NCBI GenBank assembly: GCA_963422465.1
Contig: OY730170.1
Span: 2,456,379-2,520,378, forward strand
DNA length: 64,000 nucleotides
Direction: 5' to 3'
From: Lichina pygmaea
Taxonomy: Eukaryota; Ascomycota; Lichinomycetes; Lichinales; Lichinaceae
The stretch's first letter is position 1. Each line of letters opens with the position of its first letter. The notes beneath the pieces were generated by a model. It had not been told where the DNA came from and ran no database searches. It was given only the letters and a program-made list of their open reading frames with translations. The position numbers were made by a program, and so were the translations under genes. Positions 5,201-61,245 of this stretch are shown in pieces.

Positions 5201-6516
5201 AGCTCACAGCAGAAGACACTGAAGAATTAATAAGAAACTACTACGATAACCCAGCACATGGTCACCCAGGAATCACCAAAACCACAGACCTGATCCAACA
5301 GGCAGGGAACAATATCATCAATCTCTGATAACATGTCACAAGCTACATCAGCAAATGTCTACTGTACCAGAAAAACAAACACGGAAGACACAAGCCATAT
5401 GGAGAAGAACACCCGAACATGATACCAAGAGGTCTGTGGGAAGACATGTCAATAGACTTCATCACAAAGCTACCCAAGTCCAAAGACCCAGTCACAGGAA
5501 TCACCTACAACTTGATTATGGTGATAGTGGACAGATTCACAAAATATCTAATAGCAGTACTATTCAAGGAGACCCACACAGCAGAACAGTTGGGACACCT
5601 CTTACTGGACAGATTGGTCAGAGACCACGGAGTTCCAATCATGATCATTACAGACAGAGACAAACTCTTCATGTCCAACTACTGGAAGACAATCAGTGCA
5701 GCCATGGGAACAAAACCCAAAATGTCTACGGCCTATCACCCACGAACTGACAGCCAGACGGAGCGAGCAAACCAAGTCCTGGAAACTTACTTACAGCATT
5801 ACATCAACCAGACCCACAGCAATTAGGTACAGTTATTACCGGTGGCACAGCTGGCAATCAACCAGGACAGATCAGACTCAACAAAGAAATCACTATTTTT
5901 TGCCAATTTTGGACAACATGCGAACATCGGGATGCCAAGTAGAGCTTCACCAAACACAGAGAAAGCACTCCAACATGACAAGCTCCTACGACAAACACAC
6001 ACAATGATGAGGCACTACCTTCAAGAGACCTCAGAAAGAATGCAATGTCAAATGGATAAGAAATTGAAAATAGCACCTCAGCTAAAGAAGGGGGATAAAG
6101 TCTACCTCCTCACAAGAAATTGGAAAACAAAAAAACTAAAGACAAAGAAACTTGACAACATCAAGGTCAGACTATTTTCAGTCGAAGAGAAAACAGGACC
6201 AGTCAACATCAAGATACGACTACCAAGAGATACCAGAGTCCATCCAAACTTTCACATATTGATGATTGAACCAGCCGACCAGAGCACACCCTTGCAGGAA
6301 ACATTCCATTATCAACCCGAAGAAGAACAAGAGTTCAAAGTTGAACAGATCCTGGCTAGGAAAGGTCAGCAATACCTTGTCAAGTGGAAAGGATACCCAG
6401 ACTCGGAAAATACCTGGGAACCACTCAAGAACCTCGCGAACTGCCAGCTTCTTCTGCGACAGTTTCGGCAGGAGCAGGACCAAACAGCTTGGCCTGCAGG
6501 AGGGACGCGTCAATGA
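2225..6516 (+). pseudogene. Decayed gag-pol region of the chromovirus
   Basis: Recognisable blocks lie in the usual chromovirus order. Gag has a zinc knuckle (CYACGKLGHI) near 2408. Protease spans about 3235-3590 (DSGASG; LGMPWLKKYNP). Reverse transcriptase spans about 3840-4530, RNase H about 4650-5016, and integrase about 5220-5830, with the family's SIDFITKLP and YHPRTDSQTE blocks. The C-terminal chromodomain spans about 6330-6450 (YLVKWKGYPD, TWEPL). Chromodomains steer such elements to marked chromatin. The region is broken in many places and cannot encode a polyprotein. Confidence 0.88.
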
Positions 6517-8087: not shown

Positions 8088-10356
8088 TAGGGGGGGTGGT
8101 CCGCTTCCTCCCCCTCCTACGTATATGTTGTGGAATCTGCGCACTGTGGCTAGAGCTTGTTGAAACTTCTTGACAAGATCTTTGGAATCTTCTTCCCTTC
8201 CAACACTAATACGAATAAGATCTGGCTTGATGCCAAATGATGCAGCCTGCATGAATCAGTAGTCTGTCAAATGATTCTGGAGTGAAATATTCTTACCCAG
8301 TCAAGTTCCTGATAGTGTGCCAACAAAGTGTATGGACAGCTAAAATATATCAATGTGAGTCAGCTGGCTAGCTCCCCAAGATCTTTCTTTTTCCCAAGCA
8401 AGGTCAACTCACATCAGAGTGAAGTTAGTTCCCAGACTGGGTCCTTTGGCTGTTTCAAGGCAATCAAAGAACATCACAGCATCCTCTGTTGTGTGGAACA
8501 CAACTGACAACAGGCCACCATACCCACCATCTTCGTTCCGGCAATGATCATAGAATTGTCGGGTTGGACTGAATTTTGGATAGTGTACCTCCTTCACTGA
8601 GGGATATCAGAACAGACGTGGACACAGGCATTCAAGATGCAGCACCCACCCAGGTCATCAGTTCGCAAGACATCGCAGATAGCCTCCGCATTGCTGTTGA
8701 TCTCTTGAATCCTCGAGACAAAACTTCGACTATTCCTCTCCATGAAGACTGCATCCTCAGCCCAGTAGTTGTCTTCATACTCCACTTCCAGAGCCACCTT
8801 GAGCTCCTTGTAATAAGCACTGTTAGGGTTAAGCACTGCGCTGCATGAGCCATTAGCCCTGGCCAGCCAAAAGCTTCTGGGCTTTTCATACCTCCCTCCC
8901 ATCACGTTGCTGTCTCCGCTGAAAACCTTTGTCAGACTGCTGACAGCGACATCGGCGTACGACAGCACGTGTACATTCAACAAATTTCCCACGGTCTCAT
9001 CCACGACGACAGCGAAATCGTACTTTTTCGACAGGAGCCTTATCTGTTGCAGATCTGGCGACTTTAACAACGGGTTGCTTGGAAACTCGCAGAACAAAGC
9101 GAGGTATCGCTCGCCTCGTTCCAGGCGCCTCTCCAGGTCATCCAGGTCATCGGCCGATCCGCGGCCGTAGAACAGACATCCAGGTCCCCATTTCTCAAGG
9201 ACCTTGAGAGTGTCAATGTACGGAAACCTTCGCTCAGTCAGCGACTCTGCGGAGCCCACATATCATGCCAGTCGCACCCACCCAAAACAAATTGATTTCA
9301 TTGGTCCGCGCAGCGCCATGAGGATGCGGTGTGTGTTGAATATCGAGCTCATCCCGGTTGGGAAGAGATAGACGTCGTCATCAGAGAAGCCTTTTCGTAT
9401 GCGGCTGGTTTGAAGGTTCCCGGGCATCTCCTTAGCCTTCTCTGGCTCGGCGTTGGCCGTGAGCAAGCCAGCAATACGCCTTCGTATAAGGACCTTCGCG
9501 GTCGAGGCGAGTGAGAGGTCTAGATTCCGACCGTATCTCTCCTCAATGTGCACAGAGCAATCCTCTCCTTCGGCGATGGCATCATCGGCCTGACGAGAGC
9601 TGCGTGGCCGGATGTTGCTTTGCGTCGCGTCTGCTGATGACTTGCGCTGGTACCTCCGCGGGCCACGATGCGAATGTTGTGCGCGCCCATTGGCAGGGCT
9701 GTCTCTGCTCAACTGTTTCTTGAAACAAGCATGACAGAAGTCAGCCTGACGACTGGAGATGCCTTCCCCGGTATGCTGCCAGAATTCTTTGGCACTCTGA
9801 GCAGCTCCCTCTGGGAGGATCACAAGGCAAAGCGCAAGGCTCTGCGGTCCTGTAGTATCATTGGCCTGTGGTTTGATCTCCAGGTTCAGATCCACCAGCC
9901 GTACTTGATGTCGTTGCATACAAGGCATTTGGCTCTGCAAGAAGTCCGCACACCGAGAGGCAACCGAGCGAGTTGGAAACAGCATGGCCTTCTCATCTCC
10001 AACTCCATACACCCCCAGCAGGGTCTGCGTGAACTGCCTGATACAGTCATGGATGTAGAATCTGCATCGTAGTTAGACCAGCCGTTGCTCTCGCATCTGT
10101 GCAGGGCTCGGCTTTTCGATACCTCGGATACCCGGTCCTCATCTTGCTCAAAACCCACTCCTCCCCCTCTTCGTACCCGACATTTGCCTTCCACGTCGGC
10201 AGAGATACGCTGACTGCCTACACGTCAATCAGGAACTGTCCTGCGAACGTCGGCAGCAGGACTGGCAGGACTGACATAGGGAGTGTGCGGCGGGATCGAT
10301 TCGCCCGTGGTGTCCGCAGAACACAAGCTATCGATGCCGGGATCTTGTACGACCAT
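8022..10356 (-). CDS. Cystathionine gamma-synthase, fungal type, transposon-derived C-terminus
   Basis: Joins O-acetyl- or O-succinylhomoserine with cysteine to give cystathionine (PLP-dependent, transsulfuration/methionine pathway). Exons on the minus strand: 10356-10276, 10217-10123, 10061-9282, 9227-8892, 8840-8650, 8596-8413, 8339-8297, 8246-8022. They sum to 1935 bp, 644 residues, near the fungal family length. Family landmarks are [55 protein letters not shown], the PLP lysine in [37 protein letters not shown] and [12 protein letters not shown]. After the conserved end the frame runs about 20 odd residues (GGGGSGPPP) and then 23 codons inside the pogo element. The TGA is one base before the transposase ATG. 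Bases 8221-8532 contain no CpG, unlike the 5' half. The enzyme core looks intact; whether the tail is tolerated is unknown. Confidence 0.88.
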
Positions 10357-14475: not shown

Positions 14476-15886
14476 ACAATCTTCAAACCACCATAACTTC
14501 TCCAAATCATGGCTAAATTGTCCACTGAGACTAAGACTCGAATCCAGAATGCTATAGGTAGTATCCCAGCACGTCAGAAGTTCACAGTCCCAAAACTGGC
14601 TAAAGAATTCAACATCTCCGTACATCAACTCCGAAACCGCCTCAATGGCACCCCCTCTCGCCACAGCATTATTCCTATCAACAGGAAGCTCTCTGTCACT
14701 GAGGAGCGTGCTGTCTGTTGGTACATTGATCAACTTGACAAGATAGGAATGTGTGTGAGGCCACCAATGCTTCGCAACACTGCCAATGTGATCCTTTCTC
14801 AGGGCTATACTAGAGACAACCCCCCACCTACCGTTGGTGTTCTATAGGTCAAGAGGTTTCTGGAACGTCATCCAGAATACTCTGTACAGACACAGAAAGC
14901 AACAGACCTGAAGAGAAAGGTTGCCAACAATGCCTCCTCAATATCAGCATGGTATAGCGACTTTAATGCAACATACCTTGGAAAGGGTATCCAACCGGGT
15001 GACTGCTGGAATATGGACAAGTCAGGCTTTCAGATGGGAATGGGAAGAAACAAAAAGATCATCACCAAGACTACCCACCAACAGGCGTACATCAGAAGTA
15101 TCAGTAACCAGGAGCTTGTTACTGTTGTTGAGGCTATCAGTGGTGGTGGAAAGGCAATTCCACCAATGGTTATCTTGCAAGGCAAAAACCACCAGGAACA
15201 CTGGACTGGTCATACAGGTATTGCAAGTAATGCTCTTCTTGCAGTGTCAGACAGTGGGTTCTCAAATAACCAGATAAGTCTTGAGTGGATCAAGCACTTC
15301 CACAAGTTCAGCTGCAAGACACAGCTTAGAGTTCATTGATTACTCCTCATGGATGGCTATGGGTCCTACCTTATGTTCGAGTTCCTCATGTTCTGTGAAA
15401 CCAACAACATCATACTGTTCCACCTCCCTCCACACACAACACACCTGCTGCAGCCACTGGACATGGTTGTTTTCCAGCCTTACAAGTATTGGCATGCTGA
15501 GACTGTTGATGCAGCTACTTGTACAGGGTGTACTGATTTTGATAAGCTAGAATTTCTTGTGGCTCTTGGTTCAATCTGAGATAAGGCACTGAAGTCAGCA
15601 ACAATCCTCTCAGCATTCAAAAGGACTGGCCTTATTCTGTACAATCCATCAGTGGTGGTTGACAAGTTACGAGAGAAAGAGATGGAGATAGGGCAACAAC
15701 CAGCCACCCCCCCTACGCAGATCACTACTACTGGTCAAGATCCATCAACACCTTCTACGTACGATATGTTGAAGAGGCAGGCAGATGATATGGAGGGTCC
15801 TGATGCACCACCATTGTCCACACAGTTCTGGAAGTTCATCAAGGGAAGCCTGACAATGGCAGCAGAGTTAGCAATCACCAAGGACG

Positions 15887-15897: not shown

Positions 15898-18610
15898 TTT
15901 ATTTTTATTTGTTTTATTTGATTCTTACACTGGTAGTAGCTTTACAGCCATGCAGATCTTCTAGCTAATAGTGAACTCCTTCAGAAAACCTTTGAAGGGA
16001 TAAAAACTGAAGGCAGGGTGTGACTAGGGAATGTAACAAAAGGAATCTTGAAGTTTCTGGTACGAGAAGAGAATCTAGGTATTGGGTTGGGAATAGTGGA
16101 GTTTGAAAGCTAGATTAAACTGGTTTAGTCTTTTCAAAGACATAAACCAGTACAAGAACTTCTGTAGTAGCTCTGGGTTTGAAATAATAGTGGTGAAGTC
16201 TTGGGGATTAAAAGAGACTTGTTGTCTTTGTCTTGAATAAAGAGAGCATGAAGAGGTGATATGTTTTGCAGTTTCTTCTGCTTGGCCACACACACATAGT
16301 GGGGTAGGGAAGTCAGGAACTCCAGCTCTGAAAAGAAAACTTGCCAGACCAATTCTTCCAGTCCTGATTTGCAGTAGCAGACTTGCCTCAGCTTTCTGTA
16401 ACTCTTTGTAGAGCTTCAGATTGTTTTTGTGTGGCTTTTGACAGAAAGTCTGCCAGCCTGGATAGCTTCTTCTTTTCTTCTCTTCCCATTGGTCTTCCCA
16501 CTCTTTAGTAAAGAGCTTTTGTAGTTCTTTCTTCGAACTAGCCTGGTTAGTAGTTATTTGACTTAACCAAGTGAATTTCCACTTAGGAGAGATAGTTGAG
16601 GATTCCTTTAAAGGTTTCTTCAAGAGAGAGGCATAGCTGGAAATAGTGGAAAAGATACTGTCAAGAAAGTATTTGAGAGGGGAGTTTTGAATAGAAGAAA
16701 GAAAACAGGCAGTGCGAAATTTAAAGTATAGGTCTAGAGGTAGAAGAAAAAGCTCACTCTCTAATAGAAAAGAAGGAGTGGCTTTGAAGGCACCCCCAAT
16801 AAGTCTTAGGCATCTGTTTTGAAATGAAACAAGAGAAGAGATATTGGAGGATTTTCTTAGAGGGTTAAACCAGATCCCCACTGCATAGCTCAGTAGAGAT
16901 CTCAGTATAGCAGTGTACACCAGACGTGGTGTGTGAACTGGAAAGCCCCAAGTAGAATAGGAAGTTCTAGAAAGAGAAGAGAGTGCTTTCTGTGCTTTTT
17001 GAAGAATAATCCTCTGGTGTTTGTGCCAGTGGAGCTTTGCATCTAGGTACACTCCAAGTACTCGCACTTCTTCTTTTGGTTTGAGAATCACTTTCCCCAG
17101 TCTGAGCTTGAGCTGAAGATTGTCTGATCTTCTTCTGGAAAAATGAAGTATTTCATATTTCTCAGGTGAGAAGACCATTCCATGTCTTGCAGCCCAGGAT
17201 AGACATTTGTGGTGTGTGTTCTTTAACTTCAGAAGGTTACTTTTCAAGGAGTGACCAAAAGCAAGCAGATTTGTATCATCTGCAAACCCCAGGGCAGATA
17301 CACCAGAAGAGGGAGTATGCACAGTCTCATGCAATTCAGAAATGTAGAATAGAAAAAGAATAGGGGATAGTGGAGAACCTTGAGGAACTCCACAATGAAT
17401 AGGAATAGAACAAGACTCAGAATCATCAAAGACAAGAGTGGTAGAGCGCTTATCACAGAAGGAGTAGATCCAGGAAGCTAGCCAGGCAGGTATTCCTTTT
17501 CTTTTCAGAATTTGCTGTAGTATCTTGGGGAGAACTCTGTCATAGGCTCCTGAGATATCCAGTGAGAGTAGGGATGCAACCATGCCTTCCTTCCAGACTT
17601 TTTCCACTTGGGAGGTTAGAAGGAAAAGTGCTGCTTCTGTGGATCTTCCTTTCCTAAAGCCCATCTGGATATCTGGCAATAGTCCAGCTTCTTCTGCTAT
17701 CTTGCTTAGTCTGGCTGCAGCAATAGCTTCCATCAGCTTGCCTGTTGTGTTTAGCAGAGCTATAGGGCGCCAGGCTTTAGCTTGATTGTAGGTTCCCTTG
17801 CCAGGTTTCCTCAAGCAGACTGTTTTTGCACTCTTAAATCTTTCAGGGAAGTACTCCAGTTTCCAGCATGTTGAAGTCAGAATAGCTAGAGCTTGGCAGA
17901 ACCTAGGCCCCAGAGCTCTCAGAAATCCATTTGGCAGCTTATCTCTCCCTCCTGCTGTGAAAGGTTTCTTCTTGGCCAGAATTTGCTCCAATTCTTCACA
18001 TGTTACCTCCTGGGAGAGCTGTATCTCAGAGATAGTCTGGGAGCTTTCTGAGCCTGGTTCTGGAACTAGAGCTTTTGGAAAGAACTGCTGTGAGAAGGCT
18101 TTAGTCTTTTCCTCAAAGGTTTTGGCTATTCCTTCTTGTGTTTCCAGGTCAGGAACCAGAGGAAGATCAGGAGTCTTGTTGGCTTTGGACTTTCCCCACT
18201 TTGCAAGCTTCCAGAACTTTGAAGAGCTGGCCAGCTCATGGATTTGGTGTCTGAAAGTGTTCTGTTTTCCATCTCTGACTGCCTTTTTCTTGAGCTTAGT
18301 TGCTTGCTCAAGTTCCTCTTGACTTGCTTGCCTTTTTTGTACTTTTCTTCTTACTCTTCTTTCCTCTTTAACCTTGTTTTGGATCTCTTGATTCCACCAG
18401 GGAACTGAGTGGCCAGATTGCTTCTGGAGCTGTGTGGATTTGCTTGCTATTTCTTGGAGAAAGTTGTCAAGATACTCCAAGTACTCATCCACTTCATATT
18501 TGTCTTGGAAGTGGAAGGGCAGGTGTAGCTTCTCACACTCTACTCTTGCAAGGTTTGAGTCCAGTGTTCTCCAGTTTCTTTCTGGTTTCCAGATTTTCCT
18601 TGGAGGATCC
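15898..18610 (-). mobile_element. 5'-truncated non-LTR retrotransposon (LINE, Tad-like)
   Basis: Inserted in the minus orientation in the pogo transposase. Its 3' end is an A-rich tail (reverse complement of 15898-15920, AAATAAAAC-type repeats) and its 5' end is truncated at 18610. It has an exact 11-bp target duplication. The visible part begins after the endonuclease domain, so it arrived dead. The reverse-transcriptase frame has no stop from 18610 down to 16075, which suggests a fairly recent insertion. The body has very few CpG sites. Confidence 0.92.
16075..18610 (-). CDS. LINE reverse transcriptase ORF, N-terminally truncated
   Basis: About 845 codons without stop. Reverse-transcriptase motifs appear in order: KAWRPIALLNTTGKLMEAI, GFRKGRSTEAALFL, LSLDISGAYDRV, GVPQGSPLSPILFLFYI, GFADDTNLLAFG (catalytic FADD) and VLGVYLDAKLHWHKH. 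Near the end is a Cys/His motif CVCGQAEETAKHITSSC. The N-terminal apurinic endonuclease is missing. No start codon belongs to the LINE itself: the frame stays open upstream into antisense pogo sequence as far as 19041, giving an accidental 988-codon chimeric ORF. The family is close to the fungal Tad clade by motif style; I could not run a phylogeny. Confidence 0.88.
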
Positions 18611-18621
18611 AACTTGCACAT
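18611..18621. repeat. LINE target-site duplication (AACTTGCACAT), 5' side
   Basis: Exact copy of 15887-15897, adjoining the truncated 5' end of the LINE. Confidence 0.93.
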
Positions 18622-19327
18622 GTACATGCAGCAAAAAGAGCTCGAACTACCCGCCAGCAAGCAAATCGTCGGCAGGTTCAGAATGGAGGGGTCATGTACG
18701 CCAGTGAAGCTCAGGCTATCACAGAGAAACAACGAAAGGACAAAGAGAGGTGACTGAAGTGTGCTCAGGAGAAGAAAGTAAAAAGAATAGCCAAGGCTGC
18801 AGCAGAGTTTGCCAGTATTATCGCAAAGGAGGAAAAGCGACAGGCCAAGGAAGTAAAGCAAGCTGCTATAGCTGTGGCAAAGGAAGAGCGTGCTCAGGCA
18901 AAGAAAGCAGAGCAGGCAGCCAAGCAGGCAGCAAAGGCTATGGTGGCAGAAGAGCGTGCTCGGGCAAAGGAAGCCAAAGCGACGGGAGGCAAAGTCACGA
19001 CAGCAGGTGTTGCAATTGCAACCACGATCCACCAACACCACAATGCTCCGAACGATATGACAAGCTACTATCCGATAGATGAAGTGGTCTAGAATCAGAT
19101 GGGCGAATAATAATTACTATTTGGTCGTTGTTCTATAAAGCTATAGGTGTTTGAAGTGTTCGTTGTCAAGGGTCTGTTTTTGGTCTAGTAGCTGTGGTAG
19201 TTTCTCAGCAACGCTATAAAAATCAGTAGACTTCTACAATCTCAAAGATTATACTAGAGAAGTAGGGGATTCAGATAAGCCACTTACCTTTTGATTTAGT
19301 CGTGGTGTTGCAGAGTTATAGGACTGC

Positions 19328-21719: not shown

Positions 21720-24123
21720 TCAAACAAGAACGAGTGATGAAATGAGGGGAAGACGTACGGCGTCGATAGAGGCCTGCAAGAATGACCGCGCCTCGAGTGA
21801 AACCCAAACTTTCAGCATGGACAGATCGCCCTGTCTCACGTTCTGTAGGATGGAGGTCGTGCTCTGGGCACCAAGCTCGCGGAGGATGGGAAGAGCGCTG
21901 GGGACGAATCATCGAGTCAGCTGGACAAATCGGTCTAAGAGTAAGCGGTATGGGAGGGACGATCACCTCTTGAACAGATCCAGGTTCGGGTCCAGACTTC
22001 GCCCGATGCCTTCTAGCAGGAGGATACTGATGACGATATTGACAAAGTCGCCCTCCATCCGCACATGATGCGCTCGAACCATGCCGAGCACCTGATGGAG
22101 AATGTCGCCAATCTTGATGTTGCCGAGTGCGAAGGTCCGCGACTTGATCCCGAGCACGAGATGCTGCATCTTGAGCGCGAAGATTTCTTTGTCGATGACC
22201 GCGTCAGGCTGACGGCACCGCTCCACCATTAGGTAGCCAGCCCGATAGCCGTCGAACTCGGCGATGGCCTTAAACAGGTCTAGAAAGTTCCGCCGATTTG
22301 TATGATTCAGCTCTGTGACCAGACCGGTGTCGATGAAGATTAGCTGAGGTCGGTACCCTTCGTGATCGAGCTTCGCGAGCTCGGCAACCCACTGTCGCGG
22401 CCGATGGCGGTGGGGACGAAGTCGCGACAGCACTTCCTCCGTAGCGTCTCTATCGAACGACGAAGCTTGGGCGACATCGGAATCAGACAGAGCCACCCGT
22501 CCGGACGAAGGTCGCGCCGTGAGCTGAACCTTGTTCGGCTGGTAGAAGCGCACCATGATGTTGCCAGGATGCAGGTCGGCGTGGACGAAGTTGTCGATCA
22601 AGAGCATATGCTTTTCGTGTTGCAGCGTCAGCAACCGCATCCTCTCTCCCTCTCCATCAAGTAGATGTCAAGTGCTATCTTCCCCCCTTGTAGGCCTTAC
22701 CAAAAATGCATCAAGCCCCTCGTCGGCAATCTCTTGCTGATAGACACCGCCCCCGTTCTCGAGGAACGCTTCCAGCGGGATACCATGCGCGAATTCCTCC
22801 ACGAGTACCTCTCGCGTCGTGTAATCCACGTACGGGAACGGAAACCAGGCCGTTGTCCGATCCTTGAAGTTTTTCCGAAAGATGGTCAAGTTTGTGGCTT
22901 CTATGCGCAGATCCAGCTGCAATCGCATCATCTCACCGAACTGGTCGACCTCATCTGGTAAGGACAGCCACTCCATCGTCGGAATGGCATTGATGACCGC
23001 AGCGAAAAACCTGATGATCCGCAAATCGCGCCGGACGATGCGTTCCACGTGGGGATGTAGAACCTTGATGGCCACGTAGGAAGATGGCACCCGTTGCGGA
23101 GAGCTCTTCACCAGAGCGTCGACGTTCCGCCTCAGATTGCGACGTAGCCTGCTCGTCCGGTGCCGTAGCCCGTTGCCTTTCGTGTCCGATGATACATCGC
23201 TGTCCGCTGGCAGGGCCAGATCTGGCTTCAACTTGGCCTTGTATACCTGCGCGATGGCACCAACTCCCAGCGGCGTCTCGTCAAACTCCTCGAAGATGTC
23301 CTGGAACGATCTAACGCCGCCGCTGCCGCCAAAGGCCTTTTCTATGGTCCTCTTCGTCGCGCGTAACGAATGCGCCGGCGCGTGCGAGTGAAGCTCCGAC
23401 ATGATCGTGCAGAGCTCGGTGGGGAAGATGTCCGACCTAGAGGCTGCCCATTGTCCAAGCTGCTCTCTCTCGGATTTGGATTTGTCGTCTTTAGCCGTCT
23501 TTCGGGCGTCCCCGGATTTGAGCAAGCGAAGAGAATGATGGTACCTTGATGAAAGCCGGCCCAGCATGCTCCATGGCAGAAACTAGGGACTGATACCACC
23601 ACAGAGCCCCGGTGCGCTCATTGTCCCGCAGGGGGACCCTCCCACCAAACCACATGACTGGCACCGTGAGAATCACCGGAACGAAGATGAAGACCAGTTT
23701 CAGGAATCGCAAGCCCGTGGCGATCGGTTCGACGACGTGACTCTCGACGAGCAGATACACCCTGCGATTCACCCTCCTGATGCCTCGTAGATCATCCGGA
23801 ACCGTGTCTTCTTCGGCGAGCTCCTCGCGCGACACCTCGAGCATTCGTTCCTCTACCGTTTCGTCCTTTCTGTGGCCGGCGTCGTCTTCGGCAATCTGTA
23901 TGAAGGCGGCGGGGCTCAATGCTGCAGCCGCGAGTAGAGGGTGTGTCTTGGTCGAGCGGCCGCGGTCGGCACCCTCGTCGAATCGGTATGGACATCGAGC
24001 GCGAAGACATCCGAACCATCGGAGCGTAGAATGACGCTGGCGGCATTTCTGATATTGCCTGTGACGGACGGACGAAGAGAGACGAGAACAGAAGAGCCGA
24101 TTCCAGCCAAGCAATGTGCGCAT
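21720..24123 (-). CDS. ABC1/UbiB-family atypical kinase, mitochondrial (ADCK2-like)
   Basis: Member of the ABC1/COQ8/ADCK family of atypical kinases, usually mitochondrial and linked to coenzyme Q or lipid homeostasis. Exons: 24123-23545, 23459-22701, 22610-21967, 21897-21720; 2160 bp, 719 residues. The N-terminus is Arg/Ser-rich (LFCSRLSSSVRHRQYQKC), as in a mitochondrial targeting peptide, and is followed by a hydrophobic segment (LVFIFVPVILTVPVMWF). Family hallmarks are FIKLGQWAASR (the KxGQ motif, split by an intron), PLGVGAIAQVYKA (Ala-type nucleotide loop), VAIKVLHP (Lys), NFVHADLHPGNIMV (catalytic loop) and FIDTGLV (metal-binding Asp). The loop insert between HPGN and DTG suggests the ADCK2/YPL109C branch. 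The gene is divergent from TOR across a 550-bp gap. Confidence 0.9.
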
Positions 24124-24673: not shown

Positions 24674-27600
24674 ATGGCGCAACAGATTCCGGATGCCTTG
24701 AGTCGCATCTTTCAGGATCTGAGATCCAAGTAAGCTTGGTGCCACTTCATGCTTGCGGCCTCGGGACTAATCGTTGTAGAAACGACGAGATCCGACAAAA
24801 GGCCGCCTACGAGTTGCGCAACCATGTCGTCGTCGTCTCCAGGGGTAAGGCACTTCGATTTCGCCTCATTCTCGCTCGCGACGCAGGCTGACGGGAGGTG
24901 CAGAATTGCCGCCGGACAAGTTCAACGACTACTACAATGTCATCAACGGCCGTATCTCTCAGCTCATCGTCCACGGGAACGACTCGTTTGAACGCCTGGG
25001 GGGGATCATGGCGCTTGACCGTCTGATAGACTTCGACGGCGATGATGCGGCGCAGAAGACGACGCGTTTCGCCAGCTACCTTCACAACGTCCTGCTTGGG
25101 AACGACAACGCAGCCATGATATTGGCCGCGCATGCGCTAGGCCGCTTGGCTGTTCCAGGTGGCTCTCTGACCGCCGAGCTGGTCGATAGCGAGGTCAAGT
25201 CGGCGCTCGAGTGGTTGCAGTCGGACCGCCAAGAGAACCGACGCTTCGCCGCCGTGCTGGTCATCCGCGAGCTCGCGCGCAACTCGCCGACGCTGCTCTA
25301 CTCCTTCGTTCCGGCCATCCTGGACGTCATCTGGGTCGCTCTGAGGGACCAGAAGGTCCTCATCCGCGAGTCGGCCGCCGAAGCCATGAGTGCCTGCTTC
25401 GAGATCGCGGCCGCGAGAGACGCAGGACTCCGTCAGGAATGGTTCTCGAGGATCTACGAGGAAGCTCTGCACGGGTTCAAGGCGAACGCTGTCGAGGCCA
25501 TCCACGGCTCGTTGCTGACCGTCAAGGAGCTGCTCCTCAGAGGTGGCATGTTCATGACCGAGAGATACCGTGAGGTGTGCAACATCGTGTACCACTACAA
25601 GGACCACCGGGACTTGTTGATCCGGCGCCAGGTCGTGGCTCTCGTCCCCATCCTTGCCTCGTACGCGCCGATGGATTTTGTCAAGCAGCACCTCGCCAAG
25701 TTCATGGGACATCTCGAAGGCCTACTACGGAACGAGAGAGACAGGAACTCGGCCTTCATCGCGGTCGGGAACATTGCCAGCGCCATCGGCAGCTCCATCA
25801 GCCCCTACCTTCACGTCATTCTGAGCTGCGTGAGGATGGGGTTGGAATTCAAGGCGTGAGCGCCTCGCCTTTCTCGTCTTTCTAGGGTCGATATCGTTGC
25901 GACGGGCGCTGACGGACTCAGCAGGCGCAACAAGTCGGCCAACGAGCGTCCGGTGTTTGAATGCATCAGCATGTTGTCGATTGCCGTCGGCCAGACCATG
26001 GGCAAATACATGGAGGAGTACCTGGACCCCATGTTCGCCTGTGGTCTTAACGAGTCGTTGACGCAGGCTCTGGTCGACATGGCTCACTACATCCCGCCGA
26101 TCAAACCGACGATTCAGGAGAAGCTGCTGGATCTACTGAGCCATGTCCTCTGCGGCCGGCCGTTCAAACCTTTGGGGCACCCGTCGCACGGTTTGTCGGC
26201 ACTGGCGATTCATGCCAGAGACTTTAAGGATTCACAGGCACAGGAGCACAGGGAGGCCGAGATAGCGCTTGCCTTGCACACGCTAGGCAGCTTTGATTTC
26301 TCTGGTGAGGTTGGCCCTCGACCCTTACCGGACCAAGTCTGGCAATGCTGATCTGGCCTGCTCCTCCTGCCAGGGCACGTTCTCAACGAGTTCGTCCACG
26401 ACGTCGCGATCCACTACGTCGACGACGACAAGGCCGAGATCCGAAAGGCGGCTGCCTTGACCTGCTGCCAGCTGTTTGTCCGAGACCCCATCGTTCACCA
26501 AACTAGTACACACGCGATACAGGTGGTCAGCGACGTCATCGAGAGGCTGTTGACCGTCGCCGTCGCCGATTCTGGTGATTTCTCCCCCACCCCCCTCTCT
26601 GATCTTCGACAATGCTCGTTCGTTTCTTTTCGTTCCCTTTCTCTTGCTCCCTCGTGGCTGATTGTCCGCTCGAGAGTCCGAGATTCGGCGCACGGTGCTG
26701 CTGTCGCTTGACCCTAGGTTCGACCGCCATCTCGCCAAGGCCGAGAACGTCCGAACCTTGTTCCTGGCGCTCAACGATGAGGTCTTCGCCGTTCGAGAGG
26801 CCGCCATCTCCATAGTCGGCCGGCTCACGCTGGTGAACCCAGCTTACGTGATGCCCTCGCTCCGGAAGACGCTCATCCAGCTCCTGACCGAGCTCGAGTA
26901 CTCGAACATACCGAGGAGAAAAGAAGAGAGCGCGATGCTCCTCACGCTGCTGGTTGCCGCCGCCCAGAAGCTCATCAAGCCTTACGTCGATCCGATGATC
27001 AGGGTGCTCCTGCCGAGGGCGCGGGACTCTAACAGCGGCGTGACCTCGGCCATTCTCCGAGGCATCGGGGAGCTGGCCACCGTCGGATGCGCGGACATGC
27101 TTCCCTACGTTCATGACTTGATGCCGATCATCATCGACGCCCTGCAAGATCTAGGTTCTCAGACGAAGCGAGAAGCGGCGTTGCGGACGCTTGGGCAGCT
27201 TGCGAGCAACTCTGGATACGTCATCGATCCGTATCTCGAGTACCCGCAGCTGCTCAACATATTGGTGGGGATTGTCAAGACTGAGCAGACGGGCTCGCTT
27301 CGTCGAGAAACCATCAAGCTCATGGGCATCCTGGGCGCGCTGGACCCTCACAAGCACCAAGTAAGTCTCGGGGAAATCGCCCTCTCCTTTGGAGACCTTC
27401 CGCCCCTAAACTCGGCATCGCTTACCGGTGACGATGTCTTCCTCTCGGTAGCAAGTGCTGGAGAATTCCCCCGAGAGCCATCTCGCCGCCGAGGCGGAAC
27501 GGGTGACGGACGTTTCGCTGATCATGAGCGGCTTGACACCCTCCAACGAAGAATACTACCCGCAGGTCGTCGTGAACGCGTTGATGGGAGTCATAAGGGA

Positions 27601-28325
27601 TTCTTCTCTCTCCATCTATCACTCCGCCGTCATCGACGCCGTCATGAATATCTTCAAGACCCTAGGTCTCAAATGTGTTTCCTTTTTGCCCACGATCGTT
27701 CCTTCATTCCTTGCCGTCATCCGTAACTCACCGCCCGGGCGACTGGAGCCGTATTTCAATCAGTTAAGCATCCTCGTCACCATCGTCCGCCAGCACGTCA
27801 GGAGCTTCCTTCCAAAGATTATCGAGCTCATTCAGGAGTACTGGCCGACGTCGGTCCCACTGCAAGGCACGATCCTGCAACTCATCGAGGCCATATCCAA
27901 GTCGTTGGAAGGCGAGTTCAAGACCTACCTCGCCTCCCTTCTCCCGCTCATGCTGGGTATCCTCGAGACGGACACAATGTCTCCGCGATCGACGTCGGAG
28001 AAGGTCTTGCACACTTTCCTCGTCTTTGGTTCTAGCAGTGAGGAGTACATGCATCTGATCATACCCGCCATCATCCGTGTCTTTGAGAAGTCACAACAGC
28101 CTCTTCCCGTTCGCAGACAGGCCATCGAGACTATCGGGAAGGTATCACGACAGGTCAACGTATCCGATTTCGCTTCGAGGATCATCCATCCGCTGACACG
28201 GGTTCTGTCTACCGGCGAGCCTGTACTGAAACAGGCCGCCCTGGACACCATGTGTGCTTTGATCTTTCAGCTTGGCCGTGATTTTGTTCACTATGTCCCG
28301 ATGGTCAACAAGGTTCGTCCTAGGT

Positions 28326-28357
<32 letters not shown>

Positions 28358-31300
28358 TACATGTTTTCCTCCCACCCTCGCTAATCCCTCCATTTAGACC
28401 ATGGTCGCGAATAAGATCGCTCACACCAATTATGAAATCCTCGTATCAAAGCTTCAAAAGTGGGAGCCGCTTCCGCAAGACCTCAGTCCGGATGAGCGCT
28501 ACAACGAGCAAGTCGATGAGGCTCCTTTCTCCGATGTCGGTCAGAAGAAGCTCCCCGTCAACCAGCAACATTTGAAAATCGCTTGGGAGGCGTCCCAGAG
28601 GTCGACGCGCGACGACTGGCAGGAATGGATGAGGAGGTTCAGCATCGAGCTGCTCAAAGAATCCCCGTCTCCGGCCCTCCGTGCGTGTGCCGGCTTGGCG
28701 GGAGTATATCAACCTCTGGCCAGGGAGCTCTTCAACGCCGCCTTCATCTCATGCTACACCGAGCTCTATGAGCCGTTCCAGGATGAATGCGTCCGTGCCA
28801 TCGAGATGGCGATCACGTCGAACCACATCCCGCCCGAGATCCTGCAAATCCTTCTGAACCTCGCCGAGTTCATGGAGCACGACGACAAGGCCCTCTCCAT
28901 TGACATTCGAACGTTGGGCATGTACGCGGCCAGGTGCCACGCTTTCGCCAAGGCGCTACACTACAAGGAGCTCGAGTTCCTGCAAGACACGACCAGCCAC
29001 TCAGTGGAGGCCTTGATCAGTATCAACAACCAGCTACAGCAGTCCGACGCGGCGATCGGGATCCTGCGCAAGGCCCAAGCGTACGAGGACGTGACGCTGA
29101 AGGAGACCTGGTTCGAGAAACTGCAGCGCTGGGAGGAGGCCCTGCAGGCGTACCAGCGCCGGGAACACGAGGGGAGCGGATCGTTCGAGGTCACGATGGG
29201 GAAGATGCGTTGCTTGCACGCCCTCGGCGAATGGGATCTTCTGTCCACCCTGGCCCAGGAGAAGTGGGCCGACGCCACCGGAGACTACCGAAGGCTGATC
29301 GCGCCGCTAGGGGCGGCGGCCGCCTGGGGTCTCGGGCAATGGGACCTCATGGACGGCTACCTCAACGTCATGAAGCCTCATTCCCCTGACCGGTCCTTCT
29401 TCGGGGCCATCCTCGCGCTACACCGCAACCAGTACGACGAGGCGGCTCACCACATCGGCCGGGCACGAGACGGCCTGGATACGGAGCTCAGCGCGCTGCT
29501 GGGCGAATCGTACAATCGCGCCTACGGCACCGTCGTCCGCGTGCAGATGCTCGCCGAGCTCGAGGAGATCATCACCTACAAGAAGAACATCGACCGGCCA
29601 GAGAAACAGGTGACTATGAGGCAGACTTGGATGAAGAGGCTGAAGGGCTGCTCGAGCAACGTCGAGGATTGGCAGCGGTTACTCAAAGTCCGGGCCTTGG
29701 TGGTCTCGCCAAAGGAGAACATGGAGATGTGGATCAAGTTCGCCAACCTCTGTCGGAAATCCGCTCGGTTTGGTCTCGCCGAGAAGGCCTTGAGCGCTTT
29801 ACACGGTGCACATGGCGTTGGCGTGCCGGACGAGACGGAGGTTCGGCTGGTGCTGCTGCCGGCACCGCAGGTGCGGTACGCGCAACTGAAGTACATGTGG
29901 GCCACGATGCAGCATCGCGATGCGTTCGTGCAGCTGAGGGACTTTACGAGACAGCTGTCCGAGCAGCTGTCGACGGCGAGGAGCCATCTTGTTGCGAACA
30001 CCGAACACGGGATCGGTGGCACACACCAACTCAACGGGACGAACGGTGCCAGCGGGCCTACCGGCCAGACCGCTCCTCCAGCAAAAGACACCGGCGAGCT
30101 CAGCAATCTGCTTTCCAGGTGCTATCTCAAGCAAGGGGAGTGGCAGCTCGCCCTGCAGAAGGGCGATTGGAACAGGGAGCGGGTCAAGGATATCCTGCTT
30201 TCGTTTGCCGCGGCCACTCAGTACAATCGAGGCTCGTACAAAGCCTGGCATGCATGGGCCCTCGCGAACTTTGAGGTGGTCAACTACCTCAGATCCGAGG
30301 CGGAGAAGGAGACGACCTTGCAGATCCCTCAAGACGTCATCTTCGACTACGTGGTCCCGGCCATACGAGGGTTCTTCAAGTCCATCTCCCTCTCTTCGGG
30401 TAGCACGCTGCAGGATACCCTTCGACTTCTGACGCTGTGGTTCGCGCATGGTGGCCACCCCGACGTCAATGTAGTGGTGACCGAGGGCTTCGCCTCGGTC
30501 AACGTCGATACCTGGCTTGAGGTCATACCTCAGCTAATTGCGCGCATCAGCCAGCCCAACTCGAGGGTTCGACAATCCATCCACAATCTGCTCGCCGAGG
30601 TCGGCCGAGTGCATCCGCAGGCGCTCGTCTATCCTTTGACCGTTGCCATGAAGTCTCACGTGGGACGCCGTGCGAGAGCCGCAGGTCAGATTATGGATAG
30701 CTTGCGTCAACACAGCGCGAAGTTGGTCACACAAGCCGAGATGGTCAGTCTCGAGCTGATTCGTGTCGCGGTTTTGTGGCATGAACTGTGGCACGAGGCT
30801 CTGGACGAGTCATGGAGGCTGTACGAATTCCAAATGCTCCCTTGTCGTGCCGTTCAATTTGATGCAGGATGTCTGCTGAGCTGATGGTTTGGTTTAGGTA
30901 CTTTGGCGATCAGGATATTGAAGGAATGCTAGCGACACTTGCACCGCTGCATGAGCAGCTCGAGAAGGTACGTCACTTTTCGTTTTGTAGCTCTCGTTAT
31001 GTTCTTGTGGTTGGAGGTGGAGGAGGAAAGGCTGACGCTTGGTGAGGGACAAAGGGGCCTGAAACCCAGCGTGAAGCATCGTTCCAGCAGGCTTTTGGTA
31101 GAGAGCTGCAGGAAGCCCGCGACTGGTGTAACAGCTATCGGCGTACCGGAGACGCCGCCGATCTCAACCAGGCCTGGGATCTTTATTATCAGGTCTTTCG
31201 ACGGATCGCCAGGCAGCTTCCCCAGATGACGAGTCTAGATCTCCCATACGTCTCGCCTAACCTAGAGCACGCCGAGAACCTGGAGCTGGCCGTTCCCGGG

Positions 31301-32606
31301 ACCTACCACTCTGGCAAAACCGTTGTCCGGATCGGCAGCTTCGAGACGAACTTTACCGTCATCTCCTCCAAGCAGCGTCCACGGAAGATCAGCCTCAGAG
31401 GGAGCGACGGGCATACGTACACGTATCTCCTGAAGGGTCACGAGGATATCCGGCAGGATGAACGTGTCATGCAATTATTCGGCCTCGTGAACACGCTCTT
31501 GACGACCGATTCCGAGTGCCTCAAGCGCCACCTTAACATCCAACAGTACCCGGTCATTCCGCTGTCGGAGAGCTCGGGCTTGCTGGGCTGGGTGCCCAAC
31601 AGCGACACGTTCCATCAGCTGATCAGGGAATATAGAGAGAGCCGGAAGATTCTGTTGAACATCGAACACCGCATCATGCTACAGATGGCAGCGGACTACG
31701 AGCACCTCACGCTGATGCAGAAGGTTGAGGTTTTTGGGTACGCTCTAGACAACACGACTGGGCAGGATCTATACAGAGTACTGTGGCTCAAGAGCAAGAG
31801 CTCCGAGTCGTGGCTCGATCGCCGGACGAACTACACGCGGTCTCTCGGGGTCATGTCCATGGTCGGGTACATCCTCGGTCTAGGCGACCGTCATCCGTCG
31901 AACTTGATGCTCGACCGCGTGACCGGGAAAGTCATTCACATCGACTTTGGGGACTGCTTCGAAGTTGCCATGCACCGGGAAAAGTTTCCCGAGAGGGTGC
32001 CCTTCCGGCTGACCCGGATGCTGACGTATGCCATGGAGGTGAGCAACCCCACTCTCCCTCAAGACATGAACAATCGCCTCGGTCGACGTACTGAACGAAA
32101 AACAGGTGAGCAACGTCGAGGGGAGTTTCCGAATCACGTGTGAAGCGGTAATGCGCGTTCTGCGGGAGAACAAGGAGTCAGTGCGCGCGGTCCTCGAGGC
32201 TGTAAGTGATCGGTTACAGAAGCTCTGCAGAAACTGGTAGACTGACGAGACGTCGCAGTTTGTGCATGATCCACTCCTCAACTGGCGCCTTGGAAACCGG
32301 GAGTCTCCCCTGGAACCGTCGTTCCCGTCGGAGAGACGCCAAAGCCTCGTCGGAGACGGTCTCGAGGCACGGGAGTCCTTTCGTCCGCGTGCGCGGTCGA
32401 CCCTCGAGAATGAGCCCGAGCCGAAGGAGATCCAGAACGCGCGTGCGCTGCAGGTTTTATCTCGGGTCAAGGAGAAGCTTACCGGAACAGACTTTAAACC
32501 GGACAAAGAACTCACCGTGGCTGACCAGGTGGACAAATTATTGCTGCAAGCGACTAATTGGGAGAACCTTTGCCAGCATTACATTGGTTGGTGTAGTTTC
32601 TGGTAG
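24674..32606 (+). CDS. TOR: TOR phosphatidylinositol-3-kinase-related protein kinase
   Basis: Ser/Thr kinase at the centre of nutrient-responsive growth control (TORC1, and in single-TOR fungi also TORC2). Exons: 24674-24729, 24780-24844, 24904-25855, 25925-26304, 26374-26574, 26675-27360, 27452-28312, 28398-30820, 30898-30967, 31055-32038, 32106-32201, 32259-32606; 7122 bp, 2373 residues, normal length. HEAT repeats come first ([17 protein letters not shown] at the start), then FAT, FRB ([17 protein letters not shown] to [16 protein letters not shown]), the kinase ([29 protein letters not shown] catalytic loop, [11 protein letters not shown]) and a FATC end (YIGWCSFW). In FRB the residue matching human Ser2035 / yeast Tor1 Ser1972 is Trp (codon 30813-30815, about residue 1873), while the neighbouring contacts Leu, Tyr-Phe, Trp-Asp, Tyr and Phe are kept. 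A (TA)n run sits in intron 7. Splice sites follow family conservation. Confidence 0.95.
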
Positions 32607-48109: not shown

Positions 48110-51100
48110 GTGCCTCCGTACCGTCGCTACAAAATGCAGCATGCGTCGACTGAGCAAAAGCCTTCGGGCATTCCGCGTCTGTCAAGGCTGCCACTTCCAA
48201 GCAATCGCTCTACCCAGATGGCAAGGACTGGAAGTCGGCCAACGATGGATCTTACCGTGCAGAAGCAGAGACGGCCAGCGCGCGAATCGTGTCGTCATGT
48301 CAATTCGGCGCCTCAGGCGACAATCAAAGACGATGACGATCCCGACCTTGGGTATGCAGGAGAAGCTTCAGATCTATATGACGGAGAAGAGCCACAACAT
48401 CCCCGTGCAATCCAGATATCAACGGGCGTCTCGACAGCTGATGGAGGAGTTGAGCGAAGTGCTACTGGTTTTGCGGCAAAGCAGTCCGTCGAAGATACCG
48501 GGTCAAGCATCATAGGCGCTCCAGAATCCGCTTCAAGATTGCATCCGTCGTTGGCAGAACGTACGATGCGGACCATCTCACAGATACCGCCGTCCCCTTC
48601 CCCGCAGCGTCGCAGATCCAGTTTCTACAAGGCGCAGGCTCCGATAGTTGCTCCGGCAGAGGTCGAAGGTGATGCGCGGATCTTGCCTCGACTGACGAAT
48701 CCACCGCCCGGTAGATTTTCCGCATCAGAAATGGGCTCGCCGGTACCAAAGTTTGCTGGTCGACGACTATTCGGTGCTGGAGGTCGAGCCGTGTCGTTGT
48801 CTCATAAGAATATAAACTGCACTTCAACCCATGTCCAACCAAGTGCTCGTCCACAGAGTGCAAGCGCGAACAGAGGTCTTGCAGTCGCCGCTCCTGCCAG
48901 GCGTGATAGGCGTGAATCCTCGAGGATGCCAGCACAGACCACTGGCTACAAATCCACCGTCCCATCATCACTAAGACCTAAATCCAGCCAAAAGAATCGC
49001 GCGGCGGTTGATGTTCTGCCATCGGAGCACGCGGTATCGTCACCAAAGCAGACTGCGTCGAAAAAGAGAGCGGCAAATAGCTCGAAACCGCCGCCAGTTG
49101 AACTTTCATCGCGTAGCGTCGAAGCAGAACGTGGCGATCGGCCTGTCGGATTAGAAAGCCATTCAACAAAGTCCCAGAAGAGTTCAGCAGCATTACGGGA
49201 GGCAATTGCCAAGGCCAAAGCGATTAAGAAGAAGGCTGCGGGGGAGCTCGATCTGGAAAGCATCACGGCACGATCGTCCGCCCCAAGAGCCAACGACAGC
49301 AGCATGCGCACGTCACCGTACAGCTCCGACTTGTCAGAGGTTACGCTCAATGGAAAGTCTCTCTTGGCGCGCATCGCATCCGCTCGGAACGACGGCCGTC
49401 TGGATGTATCGGCAATGGCGTTGGGTGAGATACCAGACGAGGTTCTGAACATGTACGGCCGAGAAGCCCTGGGTTCATCCAAATCTGCATGGTACGAGAG
49501 CGTCGATCTTACGTGGTTCTCAGCAGCGAACAACGAACTGGAAACCCTCGACCCGCGGCTCTTCCCTGAGGTGGATTCCTTGGACGACGTGGACGAGGAG
49601 GCTCCAATCGTGTTCGGTAACTTGGGGGGTTTGGACCTGCATGGCAATCTCTTGAGAGCGGTCCCGATGGGCATACGCAGTCTTCAGAACCTGGTCACTT
49701 TGAACCTCGTAAGCGGGCAGACCCACGCAACTCAATGCAGAGGTTCTGGTGACTGACTATCAACTCAAGTCTCACAACAAACTGCCCGGTGACTGCTTGC
49801 CAGCCATCTTCGAGTGCGTTTCCCTAAGGGATCTTAGCCTTGCCCACAACATTCTGGGCGGGGAGGTAGCTGCCGGCATATCCAAGCTCGCCAGCCTCGT
49901 TACCATAGACCTCTCAAACAACCTGTTACGATCCGTGCCTGCCGGGGTTGGGTCGCTTGCAAAGCTTCGAACTATGAACCTGAGTTACAACGAGTTGTCT
50001 GACCTGCCATACCACGCCATTGCAGACCTTCGATTGACCCATCTTGACCTGAGTCACAACAGGCTTCGAGGCCCGCTGGTGGAGCATGGGTCCTGTATTT
50101 TGAAGACGTTGCAGACTCTCAACCTGTCAAACAACGGTCTGACGCTCCTGGCCGAGTCTTCTCCATATTGTTTCATCGCACTCCGCGAGCTGGATCTGTC
50201 CGAAAACAGGCTCGCCTCCTTGCCAGACCTATCCGGCTGGGACGAGCTTCTCACGGTGGACGTCAGCGGGAACCAGCTCTCATCTCTTCCGGCGGGGTTC
50301 ACGTCCTTGGCAAAGGTCAGAAAGGCGTCATTCAGGGACAACGACATTCGAGCTCTTGACCACCGCATCGGCCTGATGGAATCTCTTGAGAGCCTTTACT
50401 TGTCGGGGAATCCCTTGAGAAGCAAGAAGGCGCTGAAGATCTCGACCGAGGATCTCAAGACGTATCTTCGTTCCCAGATCGAGCCCGAGGCTGAAGACGC
50501 AGCTGGAGCCTCTGAGGCAATTCAAGAGGAGGACCAAGGCCTTTCTGAAGAGGTCGAAGCCAGCGCAGAGAGCCAGGAGATCTGGTCGGTCCAGCCAGGA
50601 GGCGTTCTGGATCGCTCTTCAGCCGGGCTCGAGGTCGTGGAGCTATCGACACTACAGGCTACCACTACCCAGCAGGTCGTCATGCGGCTCGTTCTCCATC
50701 ACAACCTGCTCTCCTGGATTCCGGACGCTCTTTCCATCCTGACTACGACTCTCACCCAGATCGACTTGTCACACAACAGGCTCGATTCCGACCGGTATCT
50801 CAGCGGCCCTCTCAGCCTTCCGAACCTACTGCATCTCAACGTCTCATGCAACGCCATCCGCACCCTCTCACCTCTCGTCAGCCATCTGTCCGCCGCTCGA
50901 CTGCGCACCCTCGACGTATCCGCGAACCGACTGGGCGCCCTCGTTCCGTTACGGCAGCACTATCCCGCACTCACGTCGTTGACCGCCGACGAGAACTCGA
51001 TCACGGAGATCGACGTCGAGCATATCCGGGGTCTGGAGTCCATCGGGCTGAGCAACAACGACATCGGCCGTCTCCCGCCGAGGCTAGGCCTTCTCGAGGA

Positions 51101-51239
51101 GATCAGACGGCTGGATGTCGGTGGCAACCGGTTCAAGGTTCCGAGCTGGTCCGTCCTGCAACGAGGCACCCCCGCCGTGCTGGCGTGGTTGAAGGACAAG
51201 ATCCCGGCGGGCGAGCGAGACGACCGTCTCGAGACCTGA
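48110..51239 (+). CDS. Leucine-rich-repeat protein (LRRC40/SHOC2-like)
   Basis: Exons 48110-49708 and 49770-51239; 3069 bp, 1022 residues. The N-terminal ~400 residues are disordered and basic (KKRAANSSKPPPVE; REAIAKAKAIKKKAAGEL). From about residue 420 there are leucine-rich repeats of the 23-residue type: LTWFSAANNELETLDPRLF, LGGLDLHGNLLRAVPMGI, then across the intron TLNLSHNKLPGDCLPAIF, VTIDLSNNLLRSVPAGV, THLDLSHNRL, and a second array after an acidic linker (TQIDLSHNRLDSD, ESIGLSNNDIGRLPPRLG). No membrane helix or kinase is present. Such proteins usually act as cytosolic interaction scaffolds; no partner can be named. The intron falls exactly between NL and SHN of one repeat. Confidence 0.85.
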
Positions 51240-59637: not shown

Positions 59638-61245
59638 TCAGTCACCGGCTCCAGAGAGGGTCAAAGCGCGCTGTAGCTCCCGACAGGCGTCTTCGTAGAA
59701 CGCCGTCACAGACGTCATCTTCTTCTTGCCCGGGTCGAACAAGTATTCCAGCGGGGAGTTCTTGTCCCACGCGTGCACTGCTTGAGGGATGATGCCTCCT
59801 CGCACGTCGATCGTGTTGCCACGTCGTTCGCCCTTGCCTCTGGTGTTGCGCAGGCTTGCCTCCCTGCCCCAGTCCTTCTTGTCGCCCTCCTTTTCTGGCT
59901 CCACGGTCGTCGTCCGTCGCTTTCGGATGTGTTCGGGGTCTGTGGATCGCGTTCCGGAACCCGCACTGCCGACACCGCCGGCGCCCCGCCCGGTTATCTC
60001 AAGCAGCCGCTCCCGAAAGTCTTCACCCTCGCGAAACAAAAAGTCCCACTGACACGTATACAGGATGACGTGCTCCGGTAAAGCGTCGATGAGGTCTCCA
60101 TCGGACGCCATCGCAGGCGAAAGGTATGGGCTCTTGCCGTTGCCCGGCCAGCGCTGCCGCGCCGCTGCCGAGCCAAACGGCCACGACGGAGACGGCGGGG
60201 GTCCACAAGCGGCCTCCAGAAACGTCGCCATGGCCGGATTCAACGACTTGGATGGCCCTCCCGGATTCGACGCCCGTCGCACTTCTCGCGAGAGCGTGTA
60301 GTCCACCGGTGGATACCACGATACCAAGGCCCGGACAGTCAAACCTTCGTAGGCGACCTCCTCGACGTCGCTGTCTGGTCCTTGTTGATCGTCGTCCTCG
60401 CACGGTCCGGCCAGAAGCGGTCGTCGATCATCTCGGTCTGCGTTCTCGAAAGGTAGGTTGGTCTCCGGTCGAGACCGGACAGCCGCCTCGAAAGCAAGCG
60501 GGCTCGCTGCTCGTCTCCGCAGCTCCTCCCGCAGCCGAAGTAGCACGGTAAAACACAGGTTCCCTCCGGCGGAGAAACCACTCAGCGCTATTCTTCGGCG
60601 GTCGATGCTCAGGGCATCGGCATGTTCGTAGACCCACAGAAGAGCATCGACGCCATCTTCGACGGCAGCAGGAAACGGCCACTCCGGAGCCAACCGGTAC
60701 TCGACGCCGATCACGACGGCGTCGACCTGCTCCGCCACGGCGGTAGCCCAGCGGGCGTCGTCCGTGGCCGAGCCGAGAGCGAACCCCCCACCATGGAAGT
60801 TCAGGACGACGGGGTACCTGCGGGCCTCGTTCCGGTCCTCGGTGGCAGCTGTAGGGCCACGACGGACATCCTTCTCGAAACGATGTCGGCGCATCTCATC
60901 TTCGACCGCGTCATCGTGGTTCTTAAATCCGCTGCCGTCAACTTCAGGTCGATTGCCACCTTCGGCATCGTGCTGCGCTCGCTCGGCACCAGTAGCCCCC
61001 GCGAAATAGCATGAACGATATCCCCTAGGCACATATGCCACCAACTCGATGGTCTCTTTCCTGTGGGACGGGCTGGTGGACAGCGTCACCGGAATGCCGA
61101 CGCGAAAAGCAGGCGCCAAAGGCCGTGGCCGGGGTATTCGAAGCAAGAACATGCCGAGGGCCATGCAAGCGCGCCAGAAGAGCGCCTCCACGTAGACGAA
61201 AGCCCTGGTGGGCCATCGTCTTGATAGAAGGGCTAGCAGGAGCAT
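59638..61245 (-). CDS. Alpha/beta hydrolase, hormone-sensitive-lipase (GDXG) family
   Basis: Single exon, 535 residues. Catalytic features are the oxyanion motif NFHGGGFALGS, the nucleophile elbow LSGFSAGGNL (GxSxG), Asp in YTCQWDFLF and His in QAVHAWDK, in the right order for the triad. VIGVEYRLAPEWPFPAAVEDG is the standard family stretch. The N-terminus has hydrophobic segments (ALFWRACMALGMFLLRI), which suggests membrane association. Two low-complexity inserts (around residues 95-145 and 425-470) lengthen it beyond the usual 350-400 residues. The substrate is unknown: it could be an esterase, a lipase or a sterol deacetylase. Confidence 0.85.
   Translation of the reverse strand: MLLLALLSRRWPTRAFVYVEALFWRACMALGMFLLRIPRPRPLAPAFRVGIPVTLSTSPSHRKETIELVAYVPRGYRSCYFAGATGAERAQHDAEGGNRPEVDGSGFKNHDDAVEDEMRRHRFEKDVRRGPTAATEDRNEARRYPVVLNFHGGGFALGSATDDARWATAVAEQVDAVVIGVEYRLAPEWPFPAAVEDGVDALLWVYEHADALSIDRRRIALSGFSAGGNLCFTVLLRLREELRRRAASPLAFEAAVRSRPETNLPFENADRDDRRPLLAGPCEDDDQQGPDSDVEEVAYEGLTVRALVSWYPPVDYTLSREVRRASNPGGPSKSLNPAMATFLEAACGPPPSPSWPFGSAAARQRWPGNGKSPYLSPAMASDGDLIDALPEHVILYTCQWDFLFREGEDFRERLLEITGRGAGGVGSAGSGTRSTDPEHIRKRRTTTVEPEKEGDKKDWGREASLRNTRGKGERRGNTIDVRGGIIPQAVHAWDKNSPLEYLFDPGKKKMTSVTAFYEDACRELQRALTLSGAGD

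Follow-up and report, generated by a model that had tools for sequence, protein, structure and literature searches.

A TOR kinase gene of Lichina pygmaea with tryptophan at the rapamycin-critical FRB serine and a likely insensitivity to FKBP12-rapamycin

The DNA analysed here, a 64-kb stretch from Lichina pygmaea (the window), carries on its forward strand a complete, intact TOR kinase gene. The splice model was built by eye from GT/AG sites, with introns of 50-100 bases, and its frame is open throughout the 12 exons, the sole stop being the final one; the 7122 coding bases run without a frame break, and N is absent from the window. In a Pfam scan of the 2373-aa model the domains appeared in the order HEAT repeats, FAT, FRB, PI3/4-kinase and FATC, as in a TOR kinase (PIKK family). 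The gene and its parts are:

24674..32606, + strand: TOR kinase gene, encoding 2373 aa in 12 modelled exons
24674-24729, 24780-24844, 24904-25855, 25925-26304, 26374-26574, 26675-27360, + strand: TOR exons 1-6
27452-28312, 28398-30820, 30898-30967, 31055-32038, 32106-32201, 32259-32606, + strand: TOR exons 7-12
29301..30434, + strand: FAT domain, residues 1369-1746 (PF02259, E 5.8e-127)
Residues 1853-1950, + strand: FRB domain, split over three exons (PF08771, E 4.3e-44)
30753..30820, + strand: first piece of the FRB, residues 1853 to 1875, carrying the altered rim (PF08771 and splice model)
30798..30800, + strand: residue 1868, Ala (human Gly2030)
30810..30812, + strand: residue 1872, Ser, codon TCA (human Ala2034)
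30813..30815, + strand: residue 1873, Trp, codon TGG (human Ser2035, yeast Tor2 Ser1975)
30821..30897, + strand: intron 8, 77 bases, splitting a Leu codon after the Trp-Arg pair (splice model)
30898..30967, + strand: second piece of the FRB (splice model and Pfam)
31055..31210, + strand: third piece of the FRB, up to residue 1950, holding the conserved pocket residues Trp-Asp, Tyr and Phe
31418..32288, + strand: kinase domain, residues 2020-2268, with two introns within (PF00454, E 6e-81)
32511..32603, + strand: FATC domain, residues 2343-2373 (PF02260, E 2.8e-13)

Over their full length, the C-terminal 524 residues align with TOR kinases of the structure database, with 5fvm at the top (E 8.3e-235), followed by 6emk and mTOR entries. 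This search returned 92 distinct sequences at E 1e-10, and the five alignments taken from the best 60 of the 92 represent three different kinases, 5fvm, 6emk and 5h64, which we take to be yeast-type and human TOR kinases. Identity to them is 73, 70 and 68%, respectively, over 420 aligned residues, and they share with the window's TOR the domain order, a gapless FRB and a conserved kinase. The catalytic stretches GDRHPSN and HIDFGD and the C-terminal CSFW, presumably TOR/PIKK motifs, are present in the structure-database alignments. Two profile or protein scans of viral contigs (34 and 2 pattern stretches) and two of prokaryote genome contigs (114 and 13 stretches) yielded no TOR by tblastn, as expected of these fungus-free collections. 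The host is probably a filamentous ascomycete fungus; no RNA families or tRNAs were found in the window, which therefore provides no taxonomic marker. Elsewhere in the window lie:

22668-23582, - strand: ABC1 atypical kinase-like gene, neighbour of TOR in the opposite orientation (Pfam ABC1, E 2.5e-31), a possible synteny marker
5332-6516, + strand: stop-to-stop frames resembling, on a by-eye reading, the integrase and chromodomain end of a Ty3/gypsy-type retroelement
16075-19113, - strand: reverse transcriptase frame of 1012 aa (RVT_1, E 2.6e-33) in a stretch of lower G+C, apparently LINE-type
14848-15339, + strand: fragment of a transposase of the DDE superfamily (Pfam DDE_1, E 1.1e-6)
8594-9262, - strand: frame weakly matching a Cys/Met-metabolism PLP enzyme (E 2.1e-12), over the middle of the profile only
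49713-51239, + strand: leucine-rich repeat protein (Pfam LRR_8, E 8.5e-35)
59638-61323, - strand: alpha/beta hydrolase, apparently with a long insert (Abhydrolase_3, first 98 of 210 positions matched)

The FRB of the window aligns to the three references without a gap, and Trp1873 falls on human Ser2035. Human numbering was taken from the full-length chain match of 5h64_A, which begins at residue 2012 and so places query position 24 at 2035. The helix reads LEEASRLYFG in human and LEDASRQFFG in yeast, and the window sequence aligns to both without a gap; a one-residue shift of the serine position was ruled out, the flanking helix being gapless. Ser occupies the 2035 position in all three distinct reference kinases (5fvm, 6emk and human mTOR), and where these have Gly, Ala and Ser at human 2030, 2034 and 2035, the window has Ala, Ser and Trp. 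The spliced frame and the gapless alignment bear out the first-pass annotation, which had read Trp at Ser2035 from TGG at 30813-30815. The small residue expected at human 2035 of a rapamycin-binding FRB (Ser; Ala also binds) is absent, with Trp instead, and a non-Ala replacement of the FRB serine, as in rapamycin-resistant TOR alleles, is present.

The Trp codon lies upstream of the donor of intron 8 and is therefore unaffected by splice choice. At the joint 30820|30898, the donor GTACGA and the acceptor TTTAG complete a Leu codon (CT|G), and the FRB has the expected length. Read unspliced, the frame hits a stop at 30882-30884. Eight AG acceptors between 30850 and 30960 were tried with the donor at 30820, and the phase of the next exon is kept by two of them, 30868 and 30898. 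Acceptor 30868 was rejected, as it would insert ten residues within the conserved FRB helix. The joint 30820/30898, which had been singled out for checking, is thus supported by length, phase and the unspliced stop. Use of this other in-phase 3' splice site of intron 8 (stretch 30868-30897) would give ten extra FRB residues just past the Trp; the site is probably unused.

A sequencing or assembly error, with TCG read as TGG, seems to us highly improbable. The two codons are one base apart, and among the 162 Ser codons of the gene TCG is used most often (46 times), but neither a frame break in the coding bases nor an N in the window accompanies the change, and the adjacent codon differs too (Ala2034 to Ser), for which one miscalled base is insufficient.

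That adjacent codon belongs to a set of three departures within six residues at the rim of the drug groove: G2030A, A2034S and S2035W. To place them in a wider frame, columns were called invariant where both yeast-type kinases and the human one agree (three references, no filamentous ascomycete). Among such columns, the window departs from the references at 12 of 57 in the FRB vs 15 of 205 in the linker and kinase together (Fisher's test, p 0.0054). In control comparisons, the human row departs from the others at 11/56 FRB columns and 39/229 in linker plus kinase, the 5fvm row at 1/46 and 4/194, and the 6emk row at 3/48 and 7/197. The contrast between window and human in FRB excess has an interaction p of 0.066, so the excess of FRB departures in the window over linker plus kinase is no more than suggestive; since the set includes no filamentous ascomycete, this excess may be common to a large group and not peculiar to L. 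pygmaea. Eleven FRB departures besides Trp were counted, most of them away from the drug pocket. The description of the Trp as "one targeted difference" in the first-pass annotation therefore fails: the Trp is part of a cluster, 12 of 57 FRB columns being changed and three of these changes falling within six residues.

The seven residues that we take to be the rapamycin contacts, Leu2031, Tyr2038, Phe2039, Trp2101, Asp2102, Tyr2105 and Phe2108 (human numbering), are all kept in the window, and here the alignment agrees with the earlier statement that the other contacts (Leu, Tyr-Phe, Trp-Asp, Tyr, Phe) are kept. Thr2098 is Asn in the window, the same as in both yeast-type kinases. Five of the seven kept contacts (Leu2031, Phe2039, Trp2101, Tyr2105 and Phe2108) are also named in excerpted text of a published study (PMC2997006), so that the rapamycin-binding Trp2101 and Phe2108 (yeast Tor2 W2041 and F2048) and the groove residues Leu2031, Phe2039 and Tyr2105 are kept in five of five cases. 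The same excerpt names human L2031, F2039 and Y2105 for phosphatidic acid binding (PMC2997006). Three changes within six rim residues while these phosphatidic acid residues are kept would fit a re-used FRB groove, in which Trp together with A2034S and G2030A may alter the docking of a substrate, lipid or regulator, drug insensitivity being a by-product. We consider this account unlikely. Lineage-specific drift of the FRB surface appears to fit the pattern best, with changed groove docking as the more interesting rival; three references, with no filamentous ascomycete among them, are too few for drift and selection to be separable.

How unusual the Trp may be can be judged from published comparisons and from the Pfam profile. 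To our knowledge, none of the eight fungi in the figure legend of one published FRB comparison is a filamentous ascomycete. In the excerpted text of that study, with its legend of eight fungi, the FRB serine is conserved in all species examined (PMC2997006), and excerpts of other papers place it in TOR of Trichoderma reesei (PMC8004424) and in P. chrysosporium and its comparison species (PMC7032718). On the sequences compared, Trp at the FRB serine is unusual among fungi, and a search of open-licence literature for S2035W, S1972W or Ser2035Trp found no paper.

The Pfam FRB profile (PF08771) was scored with residues swapped into the Ser2035 column, the FRB of 5fvm serving as carrier. Ser scored 156.0 bits, Trp 155.4, Thr 154.2, Ala 154.1, Phe 153.9, Leu 153.9, the masked column 153.8, Lys 153.5 and Glu 153.2, and Trp ranked second behind Ser among the eight residues tried. 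Trp minus masked at Ser2035 was +1.6 bits in the 5fvm carrier and also in the window's own FRB. In seven other FRB columns the same difference was -1.6, -1.0, -1.5, -1.6, -1.3, +0.2 and +0.9 bits; the value at Ser2035 is the highest of the eight columns, while its positive sign is not unique (two of the seven others being positive). The rim residues of the window all beat the masked state in the profile (Ser at 2034 by +2.0, Trp at 2035 by +1.6 and Ala at 2030 by +0.9 bits), as expected if such states occur naturally. The column was then emulated by running hmmbuild on made-up columns with or without Trp. At effective numbers 1 to 4, Trp-free columns had best misfits of 0.68 to 0.92 bits, and columns in which 3 or 4 of 50 rows carry Trp had best misfits of 0.13 to 0.28 bits. 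A further 4000 columns lacking Trp never reached +1.6 at effective numbers 1 to 3; at 4, 6 and 8, respectively, 3, 6 and 9 of them did, and the misfit of these further columns was at least 0.62 bits throughout. Calibration on the Ala2034 column puts the effective number at approximately 2 to 6. Read most simply, these scores mean that Trp at Ser2035 makes up a few per cent of the weight in the Pfam FRB source alignment, for which trypanosomatids are our guess as the source. Trp at this position looks unusual, not unprecedented, and the idea that it is unheard of is weakened by a profile that behaves as if Trp occurs there.

These results bear on adaptive target-site resistance, in which the lineage would have lived with rapamycin-type macrolide producers and Trp would have been selected for blocking the drug complex. 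The change does sit at the textbook resistance position, with the rest of the presumed pocket kept, but selection by a single drug does not explain eleven further differing FRB columns, most of them outside the drug pocket, and the behaviour of the Pfam profile suggests that Trp exists elsewhere. We regard such an origin as distinctly unlikely; the analysis found no support for the first-pass suggestion of "life beside rapamycin-type producers", and many FRB differences lie away from the drug site. A broader proposition, that of a lineage whose only TOR was remodelled (G2030A, A2034S and S2035W) and made target-site insensitive to rapamycin-type macrolides, via either producer selection or a new docking role, seems to us possible but doubtful. 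TOR duplications occur in fungi, according to the excerpted comparison (PMC2997006), and the FRB is less conserved than the kinase, as it might be in a diverged paralog under weaker constraint, with a second TOR bearing the usual Ser elsewhere in the genome. That reading is very unlikely in our view, given that kinase, FATC and frame are fully intact, and that no second TOR stretch was found in the rest of the 64-kb window.

Work on Ser2035 mutants indicates what a replacement there may do. In one excerpted report, S2035T wholly abolishes rapamycin-induced FKBP12 binding when no wild-type copy is present, and the kinase still works (PMC10410055). In another, also excerpted, Asp, Thr, Gln and Ile at Ser2035 abolish binding while Ala does not, and Ser2035 mutants keep phosphorylating S6K and 4E-BP1 (PMC4226703). 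S2035F was acquired in a rapamycin-resistant cell line, for which the paper itself leaves undefined if the bulkier Phe prevents the complex from forming (PMC4226703). Because other substitutions at Ser2035 (Thr, Asp, Gln, Ile) abolish binding, loss of FKBP12-rapamycin binding is likely here too, and by analogy the window's FRB is likely insensitive to the complex; the expectation of such a loss at the rapamycin-critical serine, voiced in the first-pass annotation, gains support as likely from these published substitutions.

In Ser2035 mTOR alleles and yeast TOR1-1-type alleles, as excerpted, the same residue is made larger, as in the window (PMC2997006, PMC10410055, PMC4226703). However, these resistance alleles (Thr, Ile, Phe and others) arose in the laboratory or in tumours, whereas the window has a natural Trp with further FRB changes. 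The TORs of trypanosomatids are described in an excerpt as having mutated rapamycin-binding residues and as relatively insensitive (PMC10933368). Trypanosomatids are very distant organisms with several TOR genes, and are likened to the window by that description of mutated residues. Trichoderma reesei and S. pombe show a weak growth response to rapamycin (PMC8004424, excerpt); unlike the window they keep Ser2035, and tolerance there therefore has another cause. Since both keep the serine and are yet described as resistant in the excerpted papers (PMC8004424, PMC7032718), sequence alone does not settle the phenotype.

Overall, the explanation that we favour, and hold to be reasonably probable, is an intact TOR in which drift of the FRB has altered the rapamycin pocket at its rim, with drug docking lost. 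The TOR copy would probably be single and essential (both assumed). With the FRB drifted at that rim, the indole of the Trp would occupy the space in which a small side chain otherwise meets the drug; FKBP12-rapamycin would then fail to dock and TORC1 would be little inhibited by rapamycin. The lipid- and substrate-contact residues of the pocket would stay put, and the kinase would remain active. The cause would most likely be lineage-specific divergence, rapamycin never having been a strong selective force on the FRB surface. We infer all four elements of this account: loss of drug binding, insensitivity of the cell, retained kinase activity and drift as the cause.

The TOR of the window is a real natural variant of a known protein, with the change correctly placed, and probably a consequential one. 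Among fungi, rapamycin is regarded as inhibiting TOR almost universally. A natural Trp at the FRB serine would offer a ready-made test of the roles of this serine beyond drug acceptance, would be a warning about probing TOR with rapamycin in such species, and would give a first foothold for the question of whether TOR has been shaped by soil macrolides.
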